A model generated the notes under the pieces. The model searched no databases. It was not told where the DNA came from and saw nothing but the letters and a program-made list of their open reading frames with translations. The translations under genes were made by a program, and so were the position numbers. A stretch of 64,000 nt of DNA from a virus: positions 124,001-188,000 of IMG/VR virus record IMGVR_UViG_3300027793_000052. One strand, written 5' to 3'. This document shows positions 2,549-63,530 of the stretch, piece by piece; position 1 is the stretch's first letter, and each line of letters opens with the position of its first letter.

Positions 2549-5500
2549 ATGTCTAATATACAACAAAATAAAACACAAAAACTTCTTGAACTTGCCAAAT
2601 GTATAAAAGATCCTATTTATACAATAGAAAACTATTTAACCACATTTGACCAAACACAAAAAGGATTTGTTAGTTTTAAATTATTCCCCAAACAAAAGGA
2701 ATTAATTAAAGCATACAAGAAAGAACAGTTTAATATAGTGATGAAACCCCGTCAGGCGGGTGTTTCCACAACAACGGCGGCTTATATAGCTGTCATGACA
2801 GCACTGGCTGACCCACAAAGCCCTCAAAGGGTTCTAATTTTAGCTAATAAACAGGAAACAGCTATAGAATTCCTTAAAAAAGTTAAAGACTTTACTTCAC
2901 AATTACCATCATGGATGAATGTTTGGGCACCACCTACTAAACCAGGTGATGAACCTTCATGGTATGATGCCGAAAAGAATTCAGCTAAACATTATAGATT
3001 AACAAACGGTTCAGAGGTTAAAGCCGTAGCTACATCAATGGATGCATTACGTGGTTATACACCTACATTACTAGTCATGGATGAGGCGGCGTATATTGAA
3101 GGCGGTGAAGAGGTTTATGCGGCGGCTCAACCAGCTTTATCAACAGGTGGTGGAGCTATTTTAATTTCTTGTGTAACAAAAGACACTTTTGTATTTACTA
3201 ATAAAGGTATTAGAGAGGTTGGTGATTTCGTTGATGAAAATAGAAAAGGTGGGTACAACATAGATAATTATGAAGTTTTAGGTTACGGTGGTTTACGAGG
3301 TTCTAATATTATGTTTAACAACGGTAATGTAGATACTAAAATAATAAAAACTAAAATAACCAATTTAGAAGGGAGTTTAAATCATAAACTTTACGTGTAT
3401 TCGGATAAAAACAAATCTTTTGGGTGGTATCAATTGAAAGATTTGTCTGTTGGTGATTATGTGCCTGTTGTTTATAACCAAAACATATGGGGTGATAATG
3501 ATGATTGTTCTGATTTCATTATTACCGAAAACAAAAGAAATAGGAACAAATTTAAAATAAATAAAATAACCGAAGATGTTAGTTATTTTATGGGTTTATT
3601 TTTAGCAGAAGGTAGTTCATATAAATCAATAAAAAACGGTAAACATGTAGGTACTTCAATAACTATTAGTTGTGGTGATGACATATCCGGTATATTCAAA
3701 AAATTAGGTTTAAAATATAGTTTCGACGGTAAATTTCATTACACCACATCATCCAAAGAATTAGGTGGATTTTTAGAATACATGGGTTTTGATTTAGCTC
3801 TAAAAGCTAAACTAAAAACAATACCTAAACGTATTTTTTCTTTGTCTAAAAAAAATGTGATATCTTTTATCAGAGGGTTTATGGACGGTGACGGTTATAG
3901 TAGGTCTGATAACGGTAATGTAGGTCTTTGTTCGTCTTCTAAAAGATTGGTGGAACAGTTTAGGGTGTTATTTATGAACTTGGGTATACTATGTGAATAC
4001 CAAGAAAAATTAACACCACCAACCAAAAGGGTTAAGGTTGAGTCTATGAATTATAGATTACATATGAACAGTAAAAATTCTAAACTTTTTTACGATTTAA
4101 TAGGTTTTAATTTAAAACGTAAAGATGTAAAAAAACATAACTTAGTAATGTATAAAATACATGAACCACATGACGTTGTACCAATGGGTGGTGATATAAT
4201 CCGTAATAATTACCATAAAAATGGGTTAGGTTTAAAATATTTTTCGGATAGAGGTTGTAAAATAAGTCACATAACTAGAACAAACAGTAAAGTAAATCAC
4301 GTTAGTAGAGGATTATTATTAAGTTATTTGGATATCGTAAACGAATCCTATAATAACATATCTCACAATATTATGTGGGTTGAGGTTAAATCTATAGAAG
4401 ATGGTAAAAACGATACCTACGATTTCTCATTACCTAATAATGATGATGATATGTGGTGTCACAGTGTTTTATATAACGGTATATTAGGTCACCAAACACC
4501 AAACGGTATGGACGCCTTATATTATAAAACATATATGGCGGCCAAAACAAAAGAAAAAACTAACAATCCATTTAATATTGTTGAAATGAGATGGTTTCAA
4601 GATCCACGTTACAACAAAGATATGAAATGGTTAAAATTTAATGATGCCGGAGAAGTGATAGAAGAAATTGTTGATATGAATTATGACAATTTCGATAGGT
4701 TAGAGTCTGAAGGTTGGCAACCAATTTCACCTTGGTATGAAAAAATGTGTGCCCAACTTAACCATAATCAACGTAAGATTGCACAAGAGTTGAACTGTAC
4801 GTTTAACGGTTCAGGTGATAACGTAATTAATGAAAAATATATAGATTACCACAGAAAGAATAATATACAAGATCCGGTTAGAATGGAGTGGTTGGATGGT
4901 GGTATGTGGATATGGGAAGACCCACAATTAGGTCATGAATATATAATGGCTATAGATGCCTCTTCAGGTTCAGCAGATGACTTTTCTACTATTTGTATAA
5001 TGGATTTCACCACAGGTAATCAAGTTGCTGAATACCACGGTAAGGTGGCCCCAGATATATTAGGTGAAATAGCTGTAGAATATGGTAATAGATATGAGGC
5101 TTTCGCTGTTGTCGATATTACAGGTGGTTATGGTGTTTCTTCCGTATTAAAAATGATAGAACTTAGTTATCCGGTTAAAAGAATGTACTATGACCAAATC
5201 ATAGGTATAGATGCCGTAACTAACAATAAAACGTTAGAAAAACACATGAGGGATGGTAAATTACCAGGTCTTAATTTTCAAAAAAATAGAAATACTATAG
5301 TTACAAAATTAGAGGAATCTGTACGTTTAAATTCTTTTAAAGTTAGGTCTATTAGAGCTTTGGCTGAAATGGATACTTTTGTGTTTAAAGGTGGCCGTGC
5401 TGACCATATGAAAGGTTATCATGATGATTTGTTGATGGGTATTGCGATGTGCTGTTACGTTGCACAAACATCATTTAAAGACTTACAAAAAAGTCAGGGG

Positions 5501-5707
5501 CAAACTAAAGCTATGTTGGATTCTTGGGTTGTTTCTACAAACACAACTGATACAATACAAGAGTTAAATGTTACGGAAAATAACCATATGAATTCGCGTG
5601 GTGATTTATCCAAACAAGTTCAATATGCCAACTCTGAACATAATTGGGTATTTTTTGGTATGGCGGGATTTACCGATAAAAACAGTAATAAAAAATTAAT
5701 AAAATAA
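2549..5707 (+). CDS. Terminase large subunit with in-frame intein
   Basis: ATPase-nuclease motor that packages DNA into the prohead through the portal. Without the intein (residues 208-649) the extein is 610 residues, the length of T4 gp17. The ATPase half shows a deviant Walker A (KPRQAGVST, residues 66-74, lacking the usual GK) and Walker B LLVMDEA (174-180). Motif III (AILIS + TPNG) is reconstituted only after splicing. The nuclease half has the expected acidic triad: D803 in AIDASSG, D856 in VVDITGG and D959/D960 in YHDDL. No small subunit is visible next to it. The stop codon overlaps the next ATG (TAATG). The call is very secure. Confidence 0.97.
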   Translation: MSNIQQNKTQKLLELAKCIKDPIYTIENYLTTFDQTQKGFVSFKLFPKQKELIKAYKKEQFNIVMKPRQAGVSTTTAAYIAVMTALADPQSPQRVLILANKQETAIEFLKKVKDFTSQLPSWMNVWAPPTKPGDEPSWYDAEKNSAKHYRLTNGSEVKAVATSMDALRGYTPTLLVMDEAAYIEGGEEVYAAAQPALSTGGGAILISCVTKDTFVFTNKGIREVGDFVDENRKGGYNIDNYEVLGYGGLRGSNIMFNNGNVDTKIIKTKITNLEGSLNHKLYVYSDKNKSFGWYQLKDLSVGDYVPVVYNQNIWGDNDDCSDFIITENKRNRNKFKINKITEDVSYFMGLFLAEGSSYKSIKNGKHVGTSITISCGDDISGIFKKLGLKYSFDGKFHYTTSSKELGGFLEYMGFDLALKAKLKTIPKRIFSLSKKNVISFIRGFMDGDGYSRSDNGNVGLCSSSKRLVEQFRVLFMNLGILCEYQEKLTPPTKRVKVESMNYRLHMNSKNSKLFYDLIGFNLKRKDVKKHNLVMYKIHEPHDVVPMGGDIIRNNYHKNGLGLKYFSDRGCKISHITRTNSKVNHVSRGLLLSYLDIVNESYNNISHNIMWVEVKSIEDGKNDTYDFSLPNNDDDMWCHSVLYNGILGHQTPNGMDALYYKTYMAAKTKEKTNNPFNIVEMRWFQDPRYNKDMKWLKFNDAGEVIEEIVDMNYDNFDRLESEGWQPISPWYEKMCAQLNHNQRKIAQELNCTFNGSGDNVINEKYIDYHRKNNIQDPVRMEWLDGGMWIWEDPQLGHEYIMAIDASSGSADDFSTICIMDFTTGNQVAEYHGKVAPDILGEIAVEYGNRYEAFAVVDITGGYGVSSVLKMIELSYPVKRMYYDQIIGIDAVTNNKTLEKHMRDGKLPGLNFQKNRNTIVTKLEESVRLNSFKVRSIRALAEMDTFVFKGGRADHMKGYHDDLLMGIAMCCYVAQTSFKDLQKSQGQTKAMLDSWVVSTNTTDTIQELNVTENNHMNSRGDLSKQVQYANSEHNWVFFGMAGFTDKNSNKKLIK
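3170..4495 (+). mobile_element. Intein with LAGLIDADG endonuclease in terminase
   Basis: A 442-residue insert splits the terminase. It begins with Cys208 (block A, CVTKDTFVF, then GIREVGDFV) and has a block-B-like GSLNHKLYV. Two LAGLIDADG helices are present: MGLFLAEGS and FIRGFMDGDG. It ends NGILGHQ, followed by Thr as the +1 extein residue. The last intein residue is Gln, not the usual Asn; Gln-ending inteins are known to be able to splice. The joined extein ILIS-TPNG matches the ATPase coupling motif of T4 gp17 (TTTPNG), so the insertion hits an essential conserved site, as is typical for inteins. Both endonuclease motifs keep acidic residues, so homing may still be active. Confidence 0.95.
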
Positions 5708-6031: not shown

Positions 6032-7993
6032 ATGGCAGACAATAAAAATCTAACAGTCTATCAAAAGTTATTCTATATGTTTGGGCAAAATAAACCCGAA
6101 CAAAGAAATACTACCCCTAAATACACTTTTAGTGATGGTGACTTAATTACCACGCAATCTCAACAAGATTATAATAAACAAAAATTAGAGTTACAACAAC
6201 AAAATTATCTTGAGGCACAATGGGCAAGAGTAGATAGTGAGTTATATCAAAAGGCTGTTTATTATGAAACATCCAGAATAGCGTCTTATATGGATTATGA
6301 GGCAATGGAATTTTCACCTGAAATTGCAGCTGCTTTAGATATAATGTCAGAGGAATCTTGTACACCTAGTGAACAAGGTAAAATATTAACAATACAATCT
6401 AATTCTAAACGTGTTAAAAATATATTGGAGGATTTATTCTACAACATATTAGACATTCAAACTAATTTACCAATGTGGACACGTAATACGTGTAAGTATG
6501 GTGATAATTTTGTTTACTTAAAAATAGATAGACAAAAGGGTATTATTGGTTCTGCTCAATTAACTAATATAGAAATTGAACGTAAGGAAGAAGGTTTATT
6601 TGGTACCACACCATCATCTAATAAAGGTGACGGAGTTACTCAATTACCTGAAAAGAAAAAACAAGTTATGTTTCATTGGAGGGACAAATCTATGGATTTT
6701 AATCCTTGGGAAGTTGCTCATTTTCGTTTATTAGGTGATGATAGACGTTTACCTTATGGTACTTCAATATTAGAAAAAGCTAGACGTATTTGGAAACAAT
6801 TATTATTATCTGAGGATGCAATGTTAGTATATCGTGTTGTTAGAGCACCGGAAAGACGTGTATTTAAAATATATGTTGGTAATATAGATGATAAGGATGT
6901 TGATGCATATGTACAAAAAGTTGCTAATAAATTTAAAAGAAACCAAATAGTAGACCAAAAAACAGGTCAAGTAGATTTGCGTTATAATACATTGGCGGTA
7001 GACCAAGATTATTTTGTACCAGTTCGTGACCCTAACGCACCAAACCCAATAGATACTTTGGCGGGTGCTTCAAATTTGGACCAAATTGCTGATATTGAAT
7101 ACATACAAAGAAAACTATTAACAGCATTACGCGTTCCTAAACCTTTCTTAGGGTTTGACGAAGCGGCTGGTGACGGTAAAAGTTTAGCTTTATTGGATAT
7201 TAGATTTGCACGTACTATTAATCGTATACAACAATCAATGATACAAGAACTTAATAAGTTGGCTATTATACATTTATATGTTCTTGGTTTTCACGATGAT
7301 TTAAATAACTTTACACTTAATTTAACCAACCCTTCAACTCAAGGTGAAATGTTAAAGGTTGAACAGTGGAAAGAAAAAGTTCTTCTTTATAAGGATCTTG
7401 TTTCACAAATAGACGGCGGTATTGCCCCAACATCTCATACTTGGGCAAAAAAGAATATTTTTAATTGGACTGATGACGATATTAAAATTGACCTTGAACA
7501 ACAACGTATGGAAAGGGCTGCAGCTAAAGAGTTAGAAAACACGCCTGAAACAATTAAAAAGACAGGTTATTTTGAAAGAGTTGATAAACTATACGGTGAA
7601 ATTGGTTCTCCGGCTAAAACTGAGACTGGTGCTGAAGGTACTTCAGGTGATGAAGAAACAGGAGGCGGTGGAGGCTTTGGTGGTGGAGGCTTTGGTGGTG
7701 GAGGCGGAGGCTTCGGAGGTGGAGACCTTGGTGGAGACCTTGGCGGTGATTTAGGCGGTGGAGAAGGTGGTGAAGGTGAAACAGGCGGTGGAGAGGCTGG
7801 CACAGAAGAAGCTGGTGGTGGTGGATTTGGTGAAAGTTTTAGATATAAGGATAAATCTATAATAGACAAACTACTTATGGAAGGTATTCGTAAAAATGAA
7901 GATATAATGATGATGACAGATGGTATTAAAGATTTAATTGGTGAGGAAGAAATAGATGAAGATGATGATGAATTAGATTTATTACAATCATAA
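6032..7993 (+). CDS. Portal protein (gp20-like)
   Basis: Forms the dodecameric ring at the head vertex through which terminase packages DNA. The 653 residues fit T4-type portals (gp20, 524) with an extended C-terminus. Recognisable segments are the N-terminal YYETSRIASYMDYEAME region, the FNPWEVAHFRLLGD block near residue 230, the RIWKQLLLSEDAMLVYRVVR block, and LRVPKPFLGFDEAAGDGKSL near residue 365. Residues ~544-600 form an extremely Gly-rich, low-complexity linker, followed by an acidic helical tail ending in LDLLQS. It sits between the terminase module and the head-maturation genes. The linker is unusual for portals and may have grown by repeat expansion. Confidence 0.93.
   Translation: MADNKNLTVYQKLFYMFGQNKPEQRNTTPKYTFSDGDLITTQSQQDYNKQKLELQQQNYLEAQWARVDSELYQKAVYYETSRIASYMDYEAMEFSPEIAAALDIMSEESCTPSEQGKILTIQSNSKRVKNILEDLFYNILDIQTNLPMWTRNTCKYGDNFVYLKIDRQKGIIGSAQLTNIEIERKEEGLFGTTPSSNKGDGVTQLPEKKKQVMFHWRDKSMDFNPWEVAHFRLLGDDRRLPYGTSILEKARRIWKQLLLSEDAMLVYRVVRAPERRVFKIYVGNIDDKDVDAYVQKVANKFKRNQIVDQKTGQVDLRYNTLAVDQDYFVPVRDPNAPNPIDTLAGASNLDQIADIEYIQRKLLTALRVPKPFLGFDEAAGDGKSLALLDIRFARTINRIQQSMIQELNKLAIIHLYVLGFHDDLNNFTLNLTNPSTQGEMLKVEQWKEKVLLYKDLVSQIDGGIAPTSHTWAKKNIFNWTDDDIKIDLEQQRMERAAAKELENTPETIKKTGYFERVDKLYGEIGSPAKTETGAEGTSGDEETGGGGGFGGGGFGGGGGGFGGGDLGGDLGGDLGGGEGGEGETGGGEAGTEEAGGGGFGESFRYKDKSIIDKLLMEGIRKNEDIMMMTDGIKDLIGEEEIDEDDDELDLLQS
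7663..7830 (+). repeat. GGN-repeat low-complexity tract in portal gene
   Basis: About 170 bases of imperfect GGTGGAGGC-type repeats encode a poly-Gly/Phe/Asp linker near the portal C-terminus (units such as GGGGFGG and LGGD). It is the most G-rich stretch of the window and a likely site for replication slippage, so repeat number may vary between isolates. On the opposite strand it gives a long proline-rich open frame that I regard as spurious. Confidence 0.85.
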
Positions 7994-60671: not shown

Positions 60672-63530
60672 CTAATTTTCTTGTAATTCTTCAAAACGAT
60701 CCTTTATCATATAATTTGAAGGTTTACCATTTAAATCCCAAAATTTAATCTCACTATCACTCATAGTCATAAGTTCCTCCAATGTATCTTGGTCTTCAGG
60801 GTTAGTTGCTACACCACCTATTAGTTCTAATTCCTTAGATGTGAAAAATTGTTTATTTTCAGGGTTATCTATAATTAACGACTCTCTAATATGTAATGGG
60901 AATACAACTAAAAGTGGCTCAACTTTTTTATTAAAAGCTTCAATGTATTTTGGTACATTATAATCACCAGTCAAATCGGGATTTTTCTTAATTTGGTCTT
61001 CTGTAATTAAATAACAGTTAAATTTAAGTTCACCTTCAGGTGTTTTTTTAGTCTTACTGAAAGAAATATCGGCATGTGATTTACGACTACCGTTATTAAC
61101 ATAATACAAAGTATCACCTAAATTAACATGAATGTTATCACGAATTATTAATTCCATGTGGGCCTGTCTTGGTAAGTCTCTACCATTTTTATCCAAACCT
61201 CTTTTAAGGTACGATTGAACGGTTTTTTTAACTTTAGATTTGTTAGCTATATCAACTAAAGGTATTTGTTTATTATAAATTTTTTCTAAATACCCATAAT
61301 AAAAATCAACAAATTCTTTACCTTTACCATCCAATAATAATCTAATAGCCTTAGCTAAGAATTTCTCAATATATTTAGGTATTGTTTTACCCTTAATAGT
61401 ATTACCTGTTAATTTAACTTTACCACTTGGTTTTAGAATGGCATAATTCTTTCTAGACAAGTTAATGGTAGCGTCCATAATATCATCGATATCAAGACCC
61501 ATAGCACCAAACATATATCTTTCATTATATTCAGCAACATCTGCATCTATACCTGTATAAACCTCATCTTTTTTAACAAAACGATGTAAACCCTTACCAT
61601 TATACGTTCTATTTTCAACATCTTCAGGACATGAAAAGTTAACACCATCAGTATCTAACACTAAAGGTGTATAACCTCTATCCATGAAAAATTTAATCAT
61701 TAAACGAAGGTATTGTCTACCTGTACAAGTAATCATTTCACCTATATCAATATCACCCCAAGGAAAAATATAAGGTGCTGAAATAGAACCAAAAGCTGAG
61801 TTATTTAAAATTTTAATAGGTAATTGTTTTTTGTCATACATAGATGATAATTTCATATTACCTTTTGCTGCCTCGTCATTCATTAATTTTTTATACTTAT
61901 TACGAGTATCAGAAAGATATTTTAACATGGCTCTCAAAGCTCCTGTAATGTCACAACTTGGGAATACTTCATGTGTTAATTGTATGGACGGATAAAGTGA
62001 TGCGTAGTCAAATTTAGCCACCTTCTTACTATACCCTAAGTGTAATAACCTCGATAAACCACCTGTGAAATCTCTTTTGGGTAGTATATCAGGTAATGCC
62101 AAACCATTTTCATAAGACCAAGACATCATTAATAATTTCCACATTGTTGCCGTACCCATAGTTATTGAACGGTTAAATGTTGTTGGTACTAAAGCTGCCG
62201 TTAAAAAACCTGCTTGTGTGTAAATATCATCTACTTGCTCAGTTTCCAACAAGTCATCCGTAAGATATTCTGTAATTAAAAATCTACCGTCAACCTCTTC
62301 CCACTTATCTTCATAACCATCAATAACAACCATCTCACCTTTTTTATCTTCAAATAATTTAGGTTCAGGTTTAATACCATCTAAATCATACCATTGACCA
62401 CTAGTTGGGTTGTACCAATATTTTTTATTCTGAACCCACATTCTACCTAATTGACCCCCGTCCACATAAACACGATTAGGTCTTTCTACTTTGGCTTCTT
62501 TAGCGATATATTTTAAACCTGCCTCTTTTAAGTTTGAATTTAATGCCTGTGCCTGTCTAACCCTATGTAAAGTATCTAAAATGTTAATACCCCACATAAC
62601 TGTTTGTTCATATTTTTCTAATTCAGCACCTAACTTAAGGGACGCTGTTTTACGATACATAGGTATTTCAGGATGTCTTGTTTTAATAATACCTTTAGTG
62701 TTTATTGTGGTTGTTTTATCACCTATCTTACTAATAACAAAAGCTTCATTACTAATACCTAAGATTCTCATTCTACCTAAGATATACTTCCAGTCAAAGT
62801 TTTCTGAATTATAACCTGTAATAATAGAAGCATTACGTTCATGTAAAATGTTAAAAAATTCTTTTAACATTCTACGTTCAGTTTCTTCACTCCAATTACC
62901 ACTTTCATCATAGGAGTCAATAATCTTACGAAAACCACGATTGTCTTTAATCCCAATCAAAAATATGTGACCATCTTCAGGATCTAATGAGGTGGTCTCA
63001 ATATCAAATACTAACTTATGAACCTCAGTATAATCATCAAAACCTTTAAATAAACGTTTACCCGTTTGTATCATAAACTGTTCGATGGGTTGTACCATTT
63101 GAATTAGGTCTTTTCTTTTCCAAGGGTCTAAACCACCTTTTTTAAAGAAGTTTATTAATTCTCTATATGTACCAGAAGTTTTAACAATAAATTTAAAACC
63201 ATCTTCTAAACGTTCATCACCGTCAGTTCTAAGTTTCTCTGTGAAAATACCGAATTTTTTGGCTTCAGCACGCATTCTATCCATGTCATCACCATAGAAA
63301 CCACTGCCTCTAAGTGATTTTGTCCATAAGAAAGGTGTAAATTTTTGGGTTTTTATCATTTTACCCTTTTTAGGGTCATCGATAAATGTGTAAACTCTAT
63401 CGGTTTCATCTACCGACCAGTCCCCAGTTTGGGGTAACTCTACGGCTACAATATATTTTTCAGGGTCTTGGCCTTCTAGAAACACCTTAATATCTTCGGG
63501 TGTTGCTTGTTTAATTTCTTTTTTACTCAT
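60672..63530 (-). CDS. Family-B DNA polymerase (T4 gp43-like)
   Basis: 952 residues, replicative polymerase with proofreading. Exonuclease motifs: FDIETT (175-180, D176/E178), GYNSENFDW (239-247, D246) and YLTDDLLET (422-430, D426). Polymerase motifs: A KFDYASLYPS (506-515), B KILNNSAFGS (573-582), C LDTDGV (625-630). Catalytic residues are intact. Somewhat longer than T4 gp43 (898). Upstream is a small hairpin; the downstream gap has a 13-bp hairpin. No other replisome gene is in the window. Confidence 0.97.
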   Translation of the reverse strand: MSKKEIKQATPEDIKVFLEGQDPEKYIVAVELPQTGDWSVDETDRVYTFIDDPKKGKMIKTQKFTPFLWTKSLRGSGFYGDDMDRMRAEAKKFGIFTEKLRTDGDERLEDGFKFIVKTSGTYRELINFFKKGGLDPWKRKDLIQMVQPIEQFMIQTGKRLFKGFDDYTEVHKLVFDIETTSLDPEDGHIFLIGIKDNRGFRKIIDSYDESGNWSEETERRMLKEFFNILHERNASIITGYNSENFDWKYILGRMRILGISNEAFVISKIGDKTTTINTKGIIKTRHPEIPMYRKTASLKLGAELEKYEQTVMWGINILDTLHRVRQAQALNSNLKEAGLKYIAKEAKVERPNRVYVDGGQLGRMWVQNKKYWYNPTSGQWYDLDGIKPEPKLFEDKKGEMVVIDGYEDKWEEVDGRFLITEYLTDDLLETEQVDDIYTQAGFLTAALVPTTFNRSITMGTATMWKLLMMSWSYENGLALPDILPKRDFTGGLSRLLHLGYSKKVAKFDYASLYPSIQLTHEVFPSCDITGALRAMLKYLSDTRNKYKKLMNDEAAKGNMKLSSMYDKKQLPIKILNNSAFGSISAPYIFPWGDIDIGEMITCTGRQYLRLMIKFFMDRGYTPLVLDTDGVNFSCPEDVENRTYNGKGLHRFVKKDEVYTGIDADVAEYNERYMFGAMGLDIDDIMDATINLSRKNYAILKPSGKVKLTGNTIKGKTIPKYIEKFLAKAIRLLLDGKGKEFVDFYYGYLEKIYNKQIPLVDIANKSKVKKTVQSYLKRGLDKNGRDLPRQAHMELIIRDNIHVNLGDTLYYVNNGSRKSHADISFSKTKKTPEGELKFNCYLITEDQIKKNPDLTGDYNVPKYIEAFNKKVEPLLVVFPLHIRESLIIDNPENKQFFTSKELELIGGVATNPEDQDTLEELMTMSDSEIKFWDLNGKPSNYMIKDRFEELQEN

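Follow-up and report, generated by a model that had tools for sequence, protein, structure and literature searches.

The large terminase gene (terL) of a large uncultured phage, which lies in the window analysed here (the whole stretch of 64,000 nucleotides from the IMG/VR record IMGVR_UViG_3300027793_000052), carries an insert in its ATPase domain, and raises the question of what this insert is, how it would leave the protein and whether it moves between phages. Comparison of sequences and structure prediction indicate that it is almost certainly a working class 1 intein that contains a LAGLIDADG homing endonuclease and is situated in the coupling motif of a T4-like TerL. Inteins ending in Gln, inteins in terminases and insertion at the coupling motif had each been described before. 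Here, we describe the intein, its relatives at the same site and the traces of its movement.

The insert and its host terminase

The terL gene is read as a single uninterrupted frame of 1052 residues with no stop, in which the insert occupies residues 208-649, starting with CVTKDTF, ending with GILGHQ and flanked by GGAILIS and TPNG (Table 1). The ORF matches T4 gp17 (3ezk; phmmer E 3.6e-16) and PHROG 5989, terminase large subunit (2.6e-29), and the Walker A and B motifs, motif III and nuclease domain of a gp17-like large terminase are all present; we take KPRQAGVSTT in the N-extein to be the Walker A-like motif and TLLVMDEAAY to be Walker B. The portal gene lies downstream of terL at 6032, and no second TerL copy was found in the record, although the record may be a fragment. 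The G+C content is 29.2% in the insert, 36.9 and 34.1% in the two extein parts and 29.2% in the whole window. An alignment of the intein-free relative L017 with T4 gp17 places the junction within ATPase motif III (ILIS/TPNG, corresponding to IITT/TPNG of gp17). An earlier note, made from the sequence alone, had proposed an in-frame insert of 442 residues that interrupts the ILIS/TPNG coupling motif and leaves a spliced protein of about 610 residues. Its coordinates are exact, the insert stands directly before the Thr of TPNG in motif III, and the precursor minus the insert comes to 610 residues.

Table 1. Features of the terL locus (positions in the window)
Feature	Position	Strand	Remarks
TerL (T4 gp17-like large terminase) precursor including intein	2549..5707	+	1052 aa
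N-extein, 207 aa, ends GGAILIS	2549..3169	+	carries KPRQAGVSTT and TLLVMDEAAY
Predicted class 1 intein with LAGLIDADG endonuclease, 442 aa	3170..4495	+	Cys1 to His441-Gln442
Hint splicing domain, N-terminal part, intein residues 1-101	3170..3472	+	AF2 strands; invariant C1, H72
Block B, EGSLNHKLY	3368-3394	+	
LAGLIDADG endonuclease region, intein residues 132-320	3563..4129	+	E147, D241
LAGLIDADG helix 1, FMGLFLAEG	3587..3613	+	TerL 347-355
LAGLIDADG helix 2, IRGFMDGDG	3869..3895	+	TerL 441-449
Blocks F and G, TYDFSLPNNDDDMWCHSVLYNGILGHQ	4415..4495	+	D418, H431, H441, Q442
C-extein, 403 aa, Thr+1 (TPNG) first	4496..5704	+	remaining ATPase motif III and nuclease domain

The AlphaFold2 model of the insert (24 aligned inteins; pLDDT 92.9, pTM 0.92) has the Hint fold. 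The top solved structure in the Foldseek search is the TliVMA intein 7qss (E 1.3e-21, TM 0.70), followed by PI-PfuI 1dq3 (2.1e-19), PI-PkoII 2cw7 and PI-SceI, all of them inteins with endonucleases. These four share with the window intein the Hint fold and the nested LAGLIDADG endonuclease, but are only 10-17% identical to it in the structural alignments and come from archaeal or yeast hosts. The Pfam profile LAGLIDADG_3 (PF14528) scores over its cut-off, with 2e-11 for the whole ORF and 1.5e-12 for the isolated insert. The profiles of the splicing domain remain under theirs, which are score thresholds and do not define an intein: PF14890 reaches 24.5 bits for the ORF and 27.3 for the insert where 35.8 would be required, and TIGR01445 reaches 21.5 where 24.5 would be. 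Their matches fall at the expected places in the insert, the endonuclease splits the PF14890 match, and 8 of 24 scanned family members match PF14890 at E 0.01.

In the proposed mechanism, Cys208 (Cys1 of the intein) would attack the Ser207-Cys208 bond after translation, the chain would be transferred to Thr650, and Gln649 would cyclise to a glutarimide, aided by His648 and the block-F His638. The product would be the 610-residue TerL required for ATPase turnover and DNA packaging. The endonuclease would cut the intein-free terL of co-infecting relatives, and repair would copy the intein plus a few flanking bases into the cut gene. A review (PMC9958956) identifies motif III as the ATPase coupling motif, mutants of which hydrolyse a single ATP without turnover and no longer package DNA. 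Packaging should therefore wait for splicing, and would be off until the intein leaves TerL.

Relatives with and without the insert

The same-site family was gathered by searching IMG/VR with the insert and with its profiles. This gave 68 loci with a full-length intein at the site, the window among them; some of these loci are pieces of one and the same contig or are identical to one another. There are 54 distinct full-length intein proteins at the site, every one in an open frame (single loci are denoted by L numbers). Left out of the 54 were partial inteins (L003, L013, L126, L127, L130, L186, L189, L190 and L202), overlapping cuts of counted contigs (for example L002, L004, L005 and L150-L152), L185 and L194 with internal stops, L132 and L146 from other collections, and inserts in other proteins or at other sites. 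L185 and L194 are site-mates with stop codons within the intein, and are either decayed or mis-sequenced. For the host protein, 568 C-extein relatives were confirmed and the best 80 of these were kept. Among these 80 TerL loci, 73 have an empty site, four are filled and three stop short of the site. Empty sites, for which the earlier note had proposed to search related phages, were thus found, and the closest TerL found, that of L016 (91-92% identical), is itself without the insert.

The residues that splicing would need are kept throughout the family. Cys is the first intein residue and Thr the first C-extein residue in the window and in all 54 proteins, as are the Ser/Thr and His of block B, (T/S)xxH, which reads S69-L-N-H72 in the window intein, and the Asp and His of block F; these blocks, and block G, are what we take them to be from general knowledge of inteins. 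The penultimate His (H441 in the window) is found in 47 of the 54. We regard the insert, with very little doubt, as a splicing-competent intein, and strongly infer both splicing of the window TerL and homing.

Two other identities have to be weighed against a splicing intein. A domain retained in a non-splicing TerL would agree with a frame that is open throughout, but is highly improbable given that the splicing residues are invariant in the whole family, that most of the best TerL relatives do without the insert and that it splits motif III, whose mutants fail to package (PMC9958956). More improbable still is an in-frame group I or group II intron, or a homing-endonuclease gene, in place of an intein. 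Such elements are frequent in phage genes, and a free-standing LAGLIDADG gene is present in the same phage record; however, the insert has 442 codons in frame, its conservation as a protein reaches both ends, and its fold is that of an intein including the Hint part. No Rfam match to an intron was found in the insert.

The earlier note had regarded both the terminal His-Gln and the Thr after it as a less common chemistry. The part concerning Gln stands: the window intein ends in His441-Gln442, and Gln is kept in 41 of its 54 relatives. The part concerning Thr+1 does not, since Thr is an ordinary nucleophile and is found here in every member. By their last two residues, the 54 inteins comprise 37 HQ, 10 HN, 3 SN, 2 YQ, 1 FQ and 1 TQ, so that 13 end in Asn. 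Four of the Asn-ending ones (L197-L200) are in far more distant terminases, without which Gln accounts for 41 of 50; on the intein tree, the Gln/Asn state requires seven changes. Gly stands at the third-last position, residue 647 of the window precursor, in all 41 Gln-ending and in four of the 13 Asn-ending full-length inteins (Fisher 1.3e-7, uncorrected for relatedness). On independent pairs, about four of six go in the same direction and none in the opposite one, a number with which 0.05 is out of reach, and the partial intein L190, ending in Thr-His-Gln, is an exception. The association of Gly with Gln is best treated as a lead, its relatedness-corrected support being insufficient.

Gln-ending inteins are known and able to splice (PMC4031507), and Gln endings are also described in PMC8175363. 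The Gln-ending inteins of the Chilo iridescent virus RNR and of the Pol II of Pyrococcus abyssi and Methanoculleus marisnigri (PMC4031507) use the same cyclisation of Gln in step 3 that we propose for the window intein, but they reside in other host proteins, whereas here Gln is shared by most members at one site, together with the third-last Gly. For the Chilo iridescent virus RNR intein, Gln is reported to be the optimised residue, with faster splicing. Since the Pol II examples splice slowly (PMC4031507), splicing in the window could be inefficient. The same source views variant endings as stages in regaining activity after a key residue was mutated away. In the present family, Gln as the usual state across a deep lineage suggests that the Gln ending works well. 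Close same-site sisters ending in Gly-Tyr-Gln and Thr-His-Asn, endings found for instance in L105 and L107 respectively, beside others ending in Gly-His-Gln, provide a natural experiment on step 3 of splicing: site and host protein are the same and little else differs, so that the contribution of Gln and of the residues next to it is open to test.

No literature on this intein family was found among open-licence papers. A tblastn search of 50,697 phage records with the insert revealed no cultured phage with this intein; 54 records match, all below 60% identity, and at 22-26% among the 30 matches listed. Two candidates were set aside. In Psychrobacillus phage Perkons, the intein of the terminase is located at the P-loop and not at this site. 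The human faecal phage MT835790.1 (L146) has a different insert at the same site, ending in SHN/TPYG, which suggests an independent invasion of the site. The middle of the L146 insert, its letters read by eye, resembles an HNH and not a LAGLIDADG nuclease. Cellular homologues comprise 13 loci in genome contigs, with L132 as the only close one. Its TerL, which has an intein of this family, is encoded on a contig of 7 kb that was assigned to the bin of a Thermoplasmatales archaeon and is probably a phage contig inside that bin. The L132 ORF is without the C-terminal splice junction of the intein, which may reflect a dead intein or an assembly fault.

Endonuclease and movement between phages

Both endonuclease acids are kept in 45 of the 54 site-mates, and one or both are lost in nine, including L096, the nearest intein relative of the window, where they are replaced by K and N. 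In L128, the acids are lost and the intein is shortened to 341 residues. The endonuclease therefore appears dispensable in this lineage, and all nine acid-lacking relatives retain Cys1, Thr+1 and the residues of blocks B and F. A pattern of gain and decay is expected of the homing cycle, and matches the loss of acids in some members of the family. In the three comparisons available for the window, dN/dS is 0.11, 0.17 and 0.15 in the endonuclease and 0.10, 0.20 and 0.17 in the splicing domain, with dS near saturation; judged by these ratios, the endonuclease region is under purifying selection.

In a tree of 65 TerLs (25 filled and 40 empty), the presence of the intein needs nine changes, at least eight of them on well-supported branches. 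The N-flanks of L100, L109 and L124 held a remnant of a second intein, most of which was removed by the alignment filter and trimming, and these three stand outside the AU tests and the Ser-codon pair test described below. The sister of the window in this tree is the empty L016, a well-supported pair that recurs, with 98/89 support, in another tree built from 38 TerLs. The intein tree gives another picture: it pairs the window with L096 as sisters (100/99) and unites L097, L098 and L099 in a clade (100/99), within which L097 and L098 stand together (95/91). AU tests on TerL reject the grouping of the window with L096 (p 7.6e-7), of L097 with L098 and L099 (1.6e-47) and of L097 with L098 (4e-4). 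L006 and L118 have close exteins (dS 0.36 and 0.77) and far more distant inteins (dS 1.25, near saturation), as if one intein allele had been replaced. Patchy presence and absence by itself could also be due to loss; the disagreement between the TerL and intein histories gives clear traces of inteins having moved between phages.

The bases around the site may provide a further record of this movement. The filled L099 and the empty L050 are near-identical over most of about 1.2 kb on each side, with a few clusters of mismatches, and differ in the junction codons (TCT/ACA in L099, AGC/ACG in L050). Among pairs with 0.5-20% flank divergence, to which the footprint test was confined, mismatches are 2.48 times as dense within 15 nt of the site as farther out in four filled/empty pairs, compared with 1.03 times in 37 empty/empty pairs (p 0.0017 for the difference). 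The junction Ser codon is TCN in 28 of 28 filled alleles, and in empty ones is TCN in 40 and AGY in 14 of 54 (Fisher 0.0017, uncorrected), with AGT in L017 as one example of AGY and AGC in L050 as another; on independent pairs, about three of six agree in direction and none opposes (median p 0.25), so that the Ser-codon marker is kept as a possible lead. Co-conversion of flanking bases seems the simplest reading of the junction differences. That empty alleles were instead recoded to resist the endonuclease is a tentative alternative, with some probability but the lesser share of it. It would account for L016, which has 15 mismatches in the 60 nt round the site and TPKG instead of TPNG, and for AGY codons being confined to empty alleles; yet L099 and L050 differ in a few bases exactly at the junction, with 27 unchanged directly upstream, and a short conversion tract fits these equally well. 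Close filled and empty pairs such as L099/L050 and L097/L038 offer material on both homing and target resistance.

We consider the endonuclease of the window likely to be active today, and the intein would then still cut DNA. It is rather unlikely that the intein splices but has an endonuclease that no longer acts, so that any movement would be due to ordinary recombination among phages. The loss of acids in relatives as near as L096 is in line with such a state, and plain recombination could suffice for L006 and L118, whose inteins are more diverged than their exteins. The window, however, keeps both E147 and D241 under low dN/dS (0.11-0.17 against three relatives), and the patchy distribution and the incongruence of intein and TerL also speak against inactivity. 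The suggestions of the earlier note that both LAGLIDADG helices retain acidic residues and that the element may still move are consequently borne out as far as acids, purifying selection, close empty-site relatives and incongruent trees can tell.

Further inteins in TerL and comparison with known systems

In nine of the 54 relatives (L100, L109, L112, L124, L156, L160, L161, L163 and L165), a second intein ends nine TerL residues upstream of the main one, in the pattern HN or SN^TGGxxxxxS^C. In these phages, an essential motor has to shed both inteins from a stretch of nine residues. Two inteins so close in one protein are not known to us from elsewhere, though the distance may not be a record. 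The TerL ORFs of L112 and L124 (1800 and 1675 aa) contain three inteins each, the third being at HDD^C in L112 and at the nuclease Asp in L124. Four close intein sites in archaeal MCM are treated in PMC10643990, and mycobacteriophage inteins include two sites one residue apart, their joint occupation not being stated in the parts of PMC5050341 covered. It is a rather doubtful proposal, taken as a whole, that we see a long-lived lineage in which Gln and Gly were optimised, in place of a decaying Asn, and which spreads among the terminases of distant phages. In some of these, according to this proposal, two or three inteins come to lie in a cluster, and the order in which they splice could set the time at which packaging begins.

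Other arrangements were seen among the relatives. In the nuclease domain of L033 and L112, a further intein occupies the site HDD^C(L/I)MA, and the two copies are 55% identical. In L092/L094, terL is split in two, with putative split-intein halves and a +1 Cys before SFLGSG; from its layout, we judge this split-intein-like piece, with +1 Cys and at another site, to be AceL-like. L123, L125 and L128 have a split terL with putative split-intein pieces at the P-loop (HN^ST or HN^SA), and the ORFs of L107 and L116 end in an apparent split-intein N half.

Several terminase inteins described previously resemble the present one in part. The mycobacteriophage inteins TerL6-f and TerL1-a to -e (PMC5050341) are likewise in TerL, and TerL6-f was assigned to the putative ATPase coupling (C-) motif, where the window intein also lies; their hosts, however, are terminase_1 and terminase_6 proteins of mycobacteriophages, and the window intein is in the gp17-like TerL of an uncultured phage of large size. 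The same source describes cutting by two of the TerL1 inteins at the empty site in partner phages, and splicing was shown for some TerL inteins. AceL-TerL, GOS-TerL and Cat-TerL, named for TerL and obtained from environmental samples (PMC11766414), are split inteins with +1 Cys, in contrast to the contiguous window family with +1 Thr. The TerLs of crAss-like phages also carry inteins, two in one example, but that example is of the Hint-Hop type (PMC7886860).

Some other elements were observed in the same phage record. A second intein (L001, G000:C1:263706-264725) ends in VTGN/C, in a host ORF of 997 aa that is ribonucleotide-reductase-like, a name read from its letters. The free-standing LAGLIDADG gene (L149, G000:C1:26389-26613) encodes 269 aa. 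Of the ten window proteins scanned, six belong to sugar-pathway genes at 33027-53626 on the - strand (family 2 and family 61 glycosyltransferases, a nucleotidyltransferase/IspD-like protein, a DegT aminotransferase and a uridine-kinase-like protein), and the seventh match is a family B DNA polymerase at 60672-63530.
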